Position numbers and translations under genes: made by a program. A DNA stretch of 64,000 bases from Naasia aerilata (GTDB lineage: Bacteria > Actinomycetota > Actinomycetes > Actinomycetales > Microbacteriaceae): NCBI RefSeq assembly GCF_030296595.1, contig NZ_AP027731.1:2480001-2544000 (forward strand). The letters run 5' to 3'. Every line of letters begins with the position of its first letter. The first letter of the stretch is position 1. This document shows, one piece after another, positions 25,801 to 31,486 of the stretch. The notes beneath the pieces were generated by a model that ran no database searches, was not told where the DNA came from, and saw nothing but the letters and a program-made list of their open reading frames with translations.

Positions 25801-27140
25801 GTGAACTCCCGTCGCTCCTGGATCATCTTCGGCGTCGGTGTCTTCGCCTATCTCGTCGCCATCACGCAGCGCTCCAGCCTCGGCGTGGCCGCGGTCGAGG
25901 CGAGTGATCGGTTCCATTCGGCCGCCGCCGCGCTGTCGACGCTCGGGGTGCTGCAGCTCGTCGTCTACGCCCTGCTCCAGGTGCCCGTCGGCGTCCTCAT
26001 CGACCGGATCGGACCGCGGCCCCTCCTCATCGCCGGCACGATCCTGATGACGGGCGGCCAGATCGTCGTGGCCATCGCACCGACGCTCGAGGTCGCCGTG
26101 CTCGGGCGGATCCTCGTGGGCGCGGGAGATGCGACCGTGTTCACGTCGGTCCTGCGCCTCACGAACACCTGGTTCACCGGCGCTCGCGTGCCGCAGCTCA
26201 ACCAATGGATGGGCAACCTGGGCCAGTTCGGGCAGGTCATCTCCGCGATCCCGTTCGCCGCGGTGCTGCACACCTCGGGCTGGACGCCGGCCTTCCTGAG
26301 CGCGGCCGCGCTCGCGCTCCTCGCCGCCGTGCTCTGCATCGCGCTGGTCTCCAACGGCCGAGGGATCTCGCCGCAGGCGGAGAGCGTCGCCTCACTTCGG
26401 GAGGCGCTCGCGCAGCTCGGCGCAAGCCTCAAGCGGCCGGGCACCCAGCTCGGATTCTGGGCGCACTACGTCACCCAGTCGCCCGGCGTCGTCTTCGCGC
26501 TGATGTGGGGGTACCCCTTCATGGTGTTCGGAGTCGGGCTCGAGCCGGCCTTCGCCTCCACGATGCTCACGGTCATGGTGCTCACCGGCCTCGTGGTCGG
26601 CCCGTTCCTCGGTCTCCTCACGGTCCGGCATCCGATGCGGCGGTCGAACCTCGCCCTCACCGTCGTGGTGCTCATGGCCGTCGTGTGGGGCGCGGTGCTG
26701 CTGTGGCCGGCGCCGATCCCCGCGTGGCTCATCGTGGTCCTCGCGATAGCGCTCGGCATCGGCGGCCCGGCATCGCAGATCGGCTTCGACTTCGCCCGCA
26801 CGTTCAATCCGCCGCGGCGCCTGGGCTCCGCGAACGGCGTCGTCAACGTGGGCGGCTTCACGGCGAGCTTCACGAGCATGCTCCTCATCGGCCTGGTCCT
26901 GGATGCGCGGAGCGGGGAGGGGATAGCGCCTCCCTCTATTCGCTCGACTCGTTCCGGGTCGCGGAGCTCGTGCAGATCCCTGTCGTCGGCATCGGGGTGG
27001 TCGGTCTGCTGCTCGCGCGGCGCAAGACGCGGCGCCTGCTGGCCGAGGAGGAGGGAATACAGGTGGGCCCTCTGTGGGTTGCATTGGCGAGGGCATGGGG
27101 ACGGCGGAACGCGCGACGCTCCGCAAAGGGACAGGCGTGA
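25801..27140 (+). CDS. MFS transporter (frameshifted)
   Basis: About 446 residues with roughly 12 membrane segments. FGVGVFAYLVAITQRSSLG is typical of the nitrate/sugar-phosphate-like MFS group, and LIDRIGPRPLLIAG is the loop-2/3 signature. Substrate unknown. One G is missing in the run at 26919-26922, which displaces the last helix; the restored end reads SASLYSLDSFRVAELVQIP and runs to AKGQA. The gene ends 183 bp before sigA. Confidence 0.8.
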
Positions 27141-27323: not shown

Positions 27324-28732
<1,409 letters not shown>

Positions 28733-29520: not shown

Positions 29521-30779
29521 GTGACGTCTCGACCGGCCGGAATCCACTGGGCCCCGGCGGTCCTCCTCGGGCGCGCGACGCGGGTGGCGGCGCGACTGCG
29601 TAAGCGCGGGGAGGGTCCGCGGTTCCCGGACTCGTGGTGAACAAGGTGGCTCCCGGGTTCCTCGGCAGCGTGCTGTCGCACTTCCCGGAGGGGCTCGTGG
29701 TCGTGTCCGGGTCGTCCGGCAAGTCCACGACGACGAAGATGCTGGTCACGATCCTCGAGGCCCACGGCAAGCGGATCTTCACGAATCCGTCGACGGCCAA
29801 CATCAGCCAGGGCCTCACCAGCGCTCTGCTCGAGCGCGCGTCGCTGACCGGCCGGATCGACGCCGACCTGGCCGTGCTCGAGATGGACGAGGGACACGGG
29901 GCGCTCCTCTCACCGCAGTTCCAAGCGCGGATGGTCGTGCTCACCAACGTGATGACCGATCAGATCGACCGCTTCCATGACACCCGGAAGGTGCTGGCGA
30001 TGCTCGACACCATCGCCTCTCGAGCGAGCGAGCGGCTGGTATTGAACGGCGACGACGCGCTGCTCGACTCCCTGGCCGCCGACGTGAACGACGCGGTCGC
30101 CCGCTTCGGGGTCTCGTCCGAGGTGTTCGCCGCCCTGCCGCGCGGCCTCGGCTACGCCGCCACCACCGACGCCCGCGACACCGCGGGCACCCTCGTCACC
30201 GGCGTCGCCGGGCGCAGCGCGACGATCCGGTGGGACGGCGCCGACCATGAGGTCACCCTGCCCGCGCGCGGGGTCCACTACGCCGTGGATGCCGCGGCGG
30301 CGATCGCGGCGGCCCGCGAGCTGCTCGGCACCTCGTTCGATCCGGCCGTGGCGGTCGCCGCCGTCTCCGCGATGCCCGCGGTGTTCGGCCGTGGTGAGGT
30401 CGTCACGGTGCGCGGGAAGCAGGTCGAGTTCGTGCTCGTGCAGAACCCGGCCAGCTTCCAGCTCAATGTGGACGAGCTCGAGGAGGGCCTCGATCAGGTC
30501 CTCGTCGCCATGGGCTCGGACGTCGCCGACCCGTCCTACTTCTGGCCGGTCGACGCGTCCCGGATCGGACGCGCGCGCATCGTGTCCGGCTCGAAGGCGA
30601 ACGAGCTGGCGCTCCAGCTGATCTACCAGGGGGTCCAGGTGGACGACATCGAGCCGAACCTGCCGGCAGCGCTGGATCGCTTCCTCGCGCTGCCGGAGCC
30701 GGCGTCCGGGATCAAGACCATCGTGTTCACCGCGGACTCGATGCGCCGCACCCGCACCCACCTGGGGCTCGCCGAATGA
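29521..30779 (+). CDS. murT: MurT-like Mur ligase, divergent (frameshifted)
   Basis: About 419 residues. Mur-ligase core with the ATP loop VVVSGSSGKSTTTKM, the TNVMTDQIDRF motif and NGDD, followed by a DUF1727-type C-terminal domain. Canonical MurT, with GatD, amidates the alpha-carboxyl of D-Glu in lipid II. This protein has no cysteine, so the Cys4 zinc ribbon is absent, and the usual ND-x-ADG-x-D-x-SW segment reads SDVADPSYFW. One G is missing in the run at 29608-29611 near the N-terminus. GTG start; its end overlaps gatD by 4 bp. Confidence 0.82.
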
Positions 30780-31486
30780 GCGCGCTCCGCATCCTGCAGC
30801 TCTTCCCGGAGCTCACGAACGTGAACGGCGACGCCGAGAACGCGCTCGTCCTGGCCCGCCGGCTGCAGTGGGCGGGCATCGACGCCGAGGTGGTTCCCCT
30901 GGCAGCGGGCGACCCGGTGCCGACAGCTGCGCCCGCAGCGGTTTTCCTCGGCTCGGGCACCGACTCCTCCCTCGTCCGGACGCTAGCAGCGCTCGACGGG
31001 ATCCGGGGCGCGCTGTCCGAGTGGCTGGCCGCCGATATCCCGCTCCTCGCGGTCGGTACCGGGCTCGAGCTGCTCGGGCGGCGCATCGACCTGCCCGAGG
31101 GGCCGCTCGAGGGCCTCGGGATGGTGCCGGGGGAGGCCTCCTTCCTGCCGGCCAGGGTCGCCGGCGATCTCGTCGTCGACTCGGTGTGGGGCCGCCTTCT
31201 CGGGTACGAGAACCACGGCCGCGGGTTCGCCCTCGACTCCGGGGTGACGCCGCTGGGCCGCGTCGCCGCCGGCACGGGCAACGGGGACGGCGCGGACGGC
31301 GTGGCCCTCGGCTCCCTTTACGGCACCCACCTCCACGGGCCGGTGCTCGCCCGGAACCCGGCGATGGCCATGGCCTTCGTGGCCGCGGCCGCACCCGGCA
31401 CGGGCGTCGACGCCTACGCGCGCGGCCGGGCGGATGGCGTCGCAGACGCCATCAACGCCGCTACGCTTCGGCGGCTCCAGCTCTGA
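30776..31486 (+). CDS. gatD: GatD-like glutamine amidotransferase without the catalytic Cys
   Basis: A 236-residue CobB/CobQ-type class I amidotransferase. ILQLFPELTNVNGDAENA is the family N-terminus, GYENHGRGF and YGTHLHGPVLARNP the C-terminal half with the active-site His. At residue 94, where GatD has its nucleophile in an AVCxG elbow, this protein reads AVGTG (codon GGT at 31055-31057). It should not be able to release ammonia from glutamine. ATGA overlap with murT, so the two are made together. It may act as a structural partner. Confidence 0.82.
   Translation: MSALRILQLFPELTNVNGDAENALVLARRLQWAGIDAEVVPLAAGDPVPTAAPAAVFLGSGTDSSLVRTLAALDGIRGALSEWLAADIPLLAVGTGLELLGRRIDLPEGPLEGLGMVPGEASFLPARVAGDLVVDSVWGRLLGYENHGRGFALDSGVTPLGRVAAGTGNGDGADGVALGSLYGTHLHGPVLARNPAMAMAFVAAAAPGTGVDAYARGRADGVADAINAATLRRLQL

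Follow-up and report, generated by a model that had tools for sequence, protein, structure and literature searches.

A MurT-GatD pair lacking the glutaminase cysteine in Naasia aerilata and its relatives: a possible ammonia-free ligase of type-B peptidoglycan

The gatD and murT homologs of the window

Naasia aerilata (Microbacteriaceae) carries, within a stretch of 64,000 nucleotides (NCBI RefSeq assembly GCF_030296595.1, contig NZ_AP027731.1, positions 2,480,001 to 2,544,000 of the forward strand; hereafter the window, numbered from its first letter), overlapping homologs of murT and gatD, the genes for the lipid II isoglutaminyl synthase MurT/GatD of Staphylococcus aureus, Streptococcus pneumoniae and mycobacteria, which normally transfers ammonia to a precursor of peptidoglycan. 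A previous sequence-only reading of this DNA had proposed that the GatD homolog lacks its catalytic cysteine and assists, without catalysis of its own, a ligase that has taken on another function. The relevant features are as follows.

30776..31486, + strand: gatD homolog, 236 amino acids, Cys94 replaced by Gly, GatD fold predicted (Pfam, phmmer, MAFFT, AlphaFold2 (AF2) model)
31055..31057, + strand: GGT codon for Gly94, where the nucleophilic Cys is expected (phmmer and MAFFT alignments)
30824..30826, + strand: codon for Asn17 (NVNGD), where the channel-plugging Tyr is expected (Tyr30 of S. pneumoniae GatD; Tyr17 of S. aureus GatD)
29634..30779, + strand: murT homolog, in-frame part, 381 amino acids from the GTG at 29634 (sequence; AF2 model with a predicted local distance difference test score (pLDDT) of 91.2)
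29521..29613, + strand: likely true N-terminus of MurT from the GTG at 29521, in a frame differing from that of the remainder (same-genus relatives)

Alignments with phmmer and MAFFT both confirmed that residue 94 of the deduced GatD protein is Gly in place of the catalytic Cys. The stretch around Gly94, which lies in the motif AVGTG, is paired by phmmer with the segment of S. aureus GatD that holds Cys94 (5n9m, 6gs2; E ~1e-20), and MAFFT places Gly94 opposite Cys94, Asn17 opposite Tyr17, Asp19 opposite Asp19, Arg127 opposite Arg128 and His187 opposite His189, the last pairing being in agreement with the earlier statement that the active-site His region is kept. Pfam assigns the protein to GATase_3, and the solved structures matched by its sequence at E 0.001 were GatD proteins only, from S. 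aureus and streptococci according to their titles, including two GatD entries that carry the name cobyric acid synthase. The AF2 model (pLDDT 96.3) most closely resembles S. aureus GatD (6h5e_A; Z 29.9, root mean square deviation 2.1, 232 residues aligned), and the first structural matches outside GatD are to imidazole glycerol phosphate synthase at Z 18.6. Against the NCBIfam equivalog model the protein scored 77.6 bits at a cut-off of 450, and the MurT fragment 88.5 bits at a cut-off of 800, in a scoring that covered the pair of the window. The genome harboring the window contains a single GatD match and a single MurT_C match.

The sequence-only reading had judged a base substitution error to be less likely and had pointed to a Cys at this site in close relatives as the contrary case. 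We observed VGTG at residue 94 in nine of nine genomes of the genus, which excludes a base error in the window assembly and likewise an oddity of this strain. A local pseudogene was also ruled out, as murT and gatD are both kept across many genera in one chromosomal slot, described below.

The murT and gatD reading frames overlap by four bases (ATGA, 30776-30779). The deduced MurT contains the P-loop GSSGKS in place of GTNGKT, TDQIDRF instead of RDQ(L/M)DRF and a shortened ADGRD loop, and it is devoid of the two-CxxC ribbon; Asp299 of the fragment corresponds to Asp349 of S. aureus MurT, the third residue of the triad. Pfam detects Mur_ligase_M (PF08245) at E 1.1e-14, and MurT_C (PF08353) scores 24.5 bits in the fragment at a cut-off of 25 and 27.4 bits in a six-frame search of the genome. 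The model reaches Z 26-31 against MurT chains and best Z values of 29-30 against cyanophycin synthetase, pMurE, MurC and MurF, suggesting that the predicted fold resembles MurT and the amino-acid-adding ligases of the Mur fold about equally.

In the window, the N-terminal part of MurT changes frame (29557-29613 and 29616 onward). Since it lies in a single frame in those same-genus relatives whose sequences were read, an assembly indel near 29613-29616 is probable. The frame break leaves residue 94 of GatD unaffected. Further upstream, a gene resembling transporters of the major facilitator superfamily (MFS; 25975-27098) was matched in two overlapping pieces, indicating that a further indel is likely. 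Both cases agree with the earlier interpretation of the frameshifts in this region as indels.

Cys-less GatD proteins form one clade within the family

Residue 94 was then compared across the family and other Actinobacteria, as the sequence-only reading had suggested. A total of 137 GatD loci, comprising the top matches of several searches and hand-picked loci spread over genera (60 + 40), was reduced to 133 aligned proteins by dropping four duplicates or near-duplicates (L012, L045, L095, L097), and to 129 MurT-GatD pairs, MurT being missing or short in L006, L007, L010 and L134. The Cys-type and Cys-less classes used throughout are defined by residue 94 itself. The Cys is absent from 84 of the 133 proteins, where it is replaced by Gly (66), Ala (12), Ser (3), Thr (2) or Asn (1), and all 84 belong to the family of the window. 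It is retained in the remaining 49, namely in all 39 proteins from outside the family (all 37 that represent other families of the order and both proteins from Blastococcus and Kutzneria) and in 10 from within it. What had been described as one odd gene does carry Gly94, but it represents a whole gene class of the family that lacks the Cys.

A further 20 GatD genes of the family, the new ones among 30 loci (10 were repeats; in L146 the wrong open reading frame had been picked), comprised eight Cys-type, eight Cys-less and four divergent proteins with His at residue 94. At least six genomes contain both the Cys-type and the Cys-less kind (G062, G074, G131, G169, G214, G258), one of the two kinds in G169 and G258 being judged by MurT score only.

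A tree built from the 129 concatenated pairs groups all 82 Cys-less pairs in a single clade (support 0.99), which contains no Cys member. The same clade is recovered with MurT alone (support 0.94) and, with weak support (0.65), with GatD alone after removal of sites 17 and 94. It divides into subclade A, with 44 pairs including that of the window, and subclade B, with 38 pairs. The 10 Cys-type pairs of the family are scattered among the pairs of other families and do not form one group.

The divergent pairs of the family (L170-L173, L195-L198) combine a GatD-like protein that has His at position 94 in the four of four read with a MurT-like ligase. Two of these MurT-like proteins contain GTNGKT, zinc-ribbon-like cysteines and TRDSIKRN.

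Loss of the cysteine is accompanied by changes in both subunits

In S. pneumoniae, Tyr30 of GatD is described as plugging the ammonia passage, and Arg135 of MurT closes the gate in models (PMC6085368). All 49 Cys-type GatD proteins have the equivalent Tyr17 and none of the 84 Cys-less ones does, a pattern that also holds in the eight further Cys-type and eight further Cys-less proteins of the family. Correspondingly, the gate Arg of MurT (RDQ), which we matched to Arg135 by its place in the loop, is found in 47 of 47 Cys-type partners and in 1 of 82 Cys-less partners.

MurT carries additional differences. The Thr of GTNGK is conserved in all 47 Cys-type partners and is Ser in all 82 Cys-less partners; a Thr near the C-terminus is shared by all Cys-type partners, whereas 80 of 82 Cys-less partners have Asp or Glu in its place; and the loop with DNAAD/ADGRD, which has been suggested to bind the muropeptide (PMC6113224), is shorter in 81-82 of these 82. 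None of the 82 Cys-less partners has the two-CxxC ribbon, but as only 8 of 47 Cys-type partners have it, it does not define the classes. In both classes, conservation of the P-loop Lys, of the equivalents of Asn85, Glu108 and Asp349, and of the hinge Arg reaches 90% or more, and the Asn85 and Glu108 equivalents are invariant in the 32 Cys-less MurT proteins of one alignment (A3). In Cys-less GatD, the His is kept in 63 of 84 proteins, Asp19 in 80 (Glu in the other 4) and Arg127 in 78.

Thus, compared with the known isoglutaminyl synthase, the pair of the window shares the gene order murT-gatD, both folds, the P-loop Lys, the Mg-binding Glu, the hinge Arg, the Asp349 equivalent and the GatD His. 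It differs in the absence of the Cys, the Tyr plug, the gate Arg and the CxxC ribbon, in the altered P-loop and shortened loop mentioned above, and in equivalog scores far below the cut-offs.

The replacement found here has been made experimentally. S. aureus GatD_C94G lost glutamine-dependent activity, and together with MurT it still amidated lipid II with NH3 at pH 8.5; at pH 7.5 the mutant complex was inactive with either NH3 or NH4Cl, and neither MurT nor GatD alone amidated lipid II (PMC3266927). In addition, S. aureus MurT replaced MurE in vitro, yielding the Lys tripeptide, a result given there as data not shown (PMC3266927). Hence, GatD can remain a required partner after losing its glutaminase activity, and MurT is able to act as an amino-acid ligase. 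The mutant differs from the pair of the window in that its channel and MurT are otherwise canonical, whereas the change in the window is natural and is accompanied by changes of the channel and of MurT.

These results bear on the alternative that MurT still amidates D-Glu with free ammonia or with ammonia from another glutaminase, GatD being a scaffold only. The activity of the C94G complex at pH 8.5 and the retention of the Asp349 equivalent and of acceptor-side residues would fit this explanation. However, the same complex failed at pH 7.5, 80-82 of the 82 Cys-less MurT partners differ in the substrate loop and in the C-terminal residue, and in other genomes a CofE-like ligase, often together with an ATP-grasp ligase, occupies the place of the pair (see below). 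We therefore regard the use of ammonia from elsewhere as quite unlikely.

Most Cys-less pairs examined reside in an rpoD-parE slot

Upstream of murT the window contains one further gene that marks the position of the pair.

27773..28732, + strand: rpoD homolog, marker of the slot rpoD-murT-gatD (similar to plasmid genes that carry the annotation RNA polymerase sigma factor)

The gene order in the window is MFS-rpoD-murT-gatD, and parE was not found within the window; the names parE and MFS were assigned to neighboring genes from their sequence and not by family search. Among the Cys-less loci of more than 8 kb, the flanking pair of rpoD and parE is present in 40 of 43. The slot is absent around all seven Cys-type pairs of the family with flanks of more than 8 kb, and it is empty in five of five genomes whose only pair is a Cys-type pair located elsewhere. 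Even genomes of only 0.9-1.5 Mb (G023, G021, G035) have retained the pair.

The conservation of the slot bears on the possibility that the pair has lost all catalytic activity and now has a regulatory role or is disappearing. In the Cys-less class GatD diverges faster than MurT, the mean distance ratio being 1.20 compared with 0.95 for canonical pairs; in two small genomes GatD is shrunken yet still located beside MurT (L178, L180); in a third, with an assembly that is 78% complete, no GatD was found beside MurT (L190); and the pair is absent from some genomes. These observations speak for a dead or decaying pair. Against it stand the conservation of the P-loop Lys and the Mg/ATP residues of MurT at 90% or more and the retention of the slot in 40 of 43 loci and of the pair in the small genomes. 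We consider this explanation very improbable.

In subclade B the slot frequently contains additional genes. A gene with the Alr fold lies within it in 19 of 32 MurT/GatD loci, and in 16 of these 19 it is joined by a separate second Alr-domain gene, which resembles a protein with only the C-terminal Alr domain according to Pfam. A further Alr match elsewhere in the genome was present in all nine subclade-B genomes and all seven genomes with a CofE-type slot (see below) that carry a slot Alr gene and were tested. Six subclade-B genomes without a slot Alr gene showed two neighboring Alr matches elsewhere (four genomes), two matches apart from each other (one) or a single match (one). In contrast to subclade B, eight tested subclade-A genomes (G086 placed by genus) contain one Alr gene each, seen as two pieces in two of them. 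By this comparison of gene content, extra racemases are linked to one subclade of the Cys-less pairs.

In the rpoD-parE intervals L204-L214 and L217, a full alr gene adjoins one whose product has the C-terminal Alr domain only. Where the two adjoin, in 16 of 32 subclade-B slots and 9 of 12 CofE-type slots, they perhaps encode a two-subunit racemase.

A CofE-like ligase takes the place of MurT in other genomes

We surveyed 199 genomes of the family that are at least 95% complete, together with the genome of the window, for MurT matches at E 1e-20; presence thus depends on the E-value limits and on the best nine candidates per genome, which were scored. The survey for CofE-like genes was performed with the same settings and is taken to cover the same 199 genomes. 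A MurT match was obtained in 163 of them; as judged by score and by the members read, it is Cys-less in 127 genomes, Cys-type in 13, divergent in 13 and of another, low-scoring kind in 10. When all candidates were scored in 40 chosen genomes, 13 were without a MurT match. Of the 36 MurT-less genomes, 16 were not individually identified in the survey.

A slot-type CofE-like gene (>=264 bits) is present in 28 of the 199 genomes, in none of them alongside a MurT match (Fisher p 2.9e-27, kinship uncorrected). Three further genomes contain weaker CofE-like matches (111-116 bits) alongside MurT matches. Eight genera include species of both states, which points to repeated changes of state or to transfer from one species to another.

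Twenty rpoD-parE intervals were read out of the 22 genomes with a parE match (G028 and G070 were left out). Among the 15 MurT-less intervals, 12 contain the CofE-like gene directly after rpoD, one is occupied by other genes and two have none. The 12 CofE-type slots include an ATP-grasp gene in 10 cases and both Alr-domain genes in nine, the families assigned from six example proteins being F420_ligase (PF01996), ATPgrasp_ST (PF14397) and Ala_racemase. The CofE-like protein scores 30 bits at a true-CofE cut-off of 181, and it returned no match among solved structures and none on plasmids.

In G061, a divergent MurT-like gene adjoins a distant CofE-like gene (C1:613116-614389, L199). G130, a genome of the same genus, has weak matches to both MurT-like and CofE-like proteins.

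Taken together, at the level of sequence, the Cys, the channel plug and the channel gate were lost in a class of one origin that occupies a conserved slot, in which it is replaced elsewhere by another family of amide ligases. This exchange could also be read as the sign of an amide ligase for some other envelope or metabolic substrate, e.g., for a dispensable side modification of peptidoglycan and not for the D-Glu alpha-carboxyl. The lack of a MurT match in 36 of 199 genomes and the presence of both states in eight genera suggest an exchangeable trait, and the shortened DNAAD substrate loop is compatible with such a substrate. It is at odds with the invariance, in the 32 Cys-less MurT proteins mentioned above, of the Asn85 and Glu108 equivalents, which are important for lipid II amidation in S. 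aureus or S. pneumoniae. A substrate of this kind seems unlikely to us.

A candidate ligase for the type-B cross-bridge

In type-B peptidoglycan the cross-bridge leaves from the alpha-carboxyl of D-Glu. Type-B peptidoglycan with diaminobutyrate or D-ornithine has been reported for genera of the Microbacteriaceae (PMC5945732, PMC10757982), and in other bacteria the D-Glu alpha-carboxylate is amidated or bears Gly or D-Ser (PMC11555704). Judging from the sequence comparisons, we consider it somewhat more probable than its opposite that the Cys-less pair acts as a ligase without using ammonia and couples an amino acid to this carboxyl group, with GatD as the non-catalytic partner. The pair would no longer be a glutamine-dependent amidotransferase. 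MurT, as its conserved residues suggest, would bind ATP and activate the D-Glu alpha-carboxyl of the peptidoglycan precursor as an acyl phosphate, which would be attacked by the amino group of an amino acid and not by GatD-derived ammonia. This amino acid would most likely be a diamino acid, often in the D-form, that starts the type-B cross-bridge; GatD would complete or stabilize MurT; and in part of subclade B the slot racemases may supply D-amino acids. In this proposal, the retained ligase activity, the acceptor, the nucleophile and the connection with type-B walls are all inferred.

The fixation of the Cys loss in one clade, the concomitant loss of channel residues in both subunits and the C94G precedent support the part of the sequence-only reading in which GatD, itself inactive, assists a ligase of changed function. 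Its link to type-B peptidoglycan does not stand for an enzyme common to the whole family.

Several results weigh against the proposed ligase or limit its reach. Most directly, 36 of the 199 genomes contain no MurT match at E 1e-20, and eight of these are without a CofE-like gene as well. The pair is therefore not the type-B enzyme of the whole family, and a universal role as stated was ruled out. In the adenine pocket, 81 of 82 Cys-less partners have Asp as the equivalent of S. aureus Asn267, and as N267Y abolished the activity of S. aureus MurT (PMC6113224), the use of ATP is not certain. A slot racemase occurs in 0 of 11 loci of subclade A, to which the window belongs, and the genome of the window has a single Alr gene. 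In addition, two Cys-less loci, L049 and L062, which both lie in a small early branch of subclade A, carry an ATP-grasp gene in the slot between gatD and parE; as both genes are present there, MurT and the ATP-grasp gene do not strictly exclude each other. Finally, comparison with the E. coli MurE sequence gave no reliable map of the amino-acid pocket.

Two related assignments were dropped. The N267Y substitution is not natural here, since direct alignment gives Asp, which is also found in the Cys-type pair of Kutzneria. Equating the new acidic residue near the C-terminus with the amine-binding Glu of MurE is not claimed, as the C-terminal alignment obtained with hhalign was unreliable and the E. 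coli MurE positions examined alongside did not show the residues expected there.

The exchange of MurT for the CofE-like gene fits a role of the pair as an amino-acid ligase, without proving it. More tentatively, and in our estimation a little short of an even chance, the full scenario would be a type-B cross-bridge ligase that couples a (D-)diamino acid to the D-Glu alpha-carboxyl, arose once from the amidating MurT/GatD by loss of the ammonia chemistry and was swapped, in many related species, within its slot with a cassette of the CofE-like gene, often together with the ATP-grasp gene, so that the slot decides how the wall is cross-linked.

The proposed ligase can be set beside other members of the fold. 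MurC-F, pMurC/E and cyanophycin synthetase share the middle and C-terminal folds of Mur ligases, but their UDP-binding N-terminal domain (UDP, uridine diphosphate) has no counterpart in the modeled part of the MurT of the window, which retains a GatD partner. The archaeal MurT-like ligases are likewise MurT relatives independent of a glutaminase; they differ in that GatD is absent there, whereas a Cys-less GatD is kept here, a distinction drawn from their description (PMC11915815).

Among the literature matches listed, judged by title and the start of the abstract, we found no report of a Cys-less GatD or of a type-B ligase, preprints and most subscription journals being outside the scope of the search. 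To our knowledge, no enzyme has been named that loads the cross-bridge amino acid onto the D-Glu alpha-carboxyl of type-B peptidoglycan. The pair, its slot and the alternative cassette are concrete candidates for this ligase. If the proposal is correct, they would provide a clear case of an amidotransferase turned into an amino-acid ligase by loss of its ammonia supply, with the dead glutaminase retained as a partner.

MurT-GatD pairs on plasmids

In S. aureus, murT-gatD is usually chromosomal. A plasmid record labeled S. aureus (NZ_CP077935.1, L141) carries murT-gatD and may be a piece of the chromosome. A plasmid of Leifsonia shinshuensis (NZ_CP043642.1, L140, 2727-5676) contains a Cys-type murT-gatD directly before the gene for an M15 (VanY-like) peptidase, amid metal-resistance genes, and this region possibly represents a mobile cell-wall modification.

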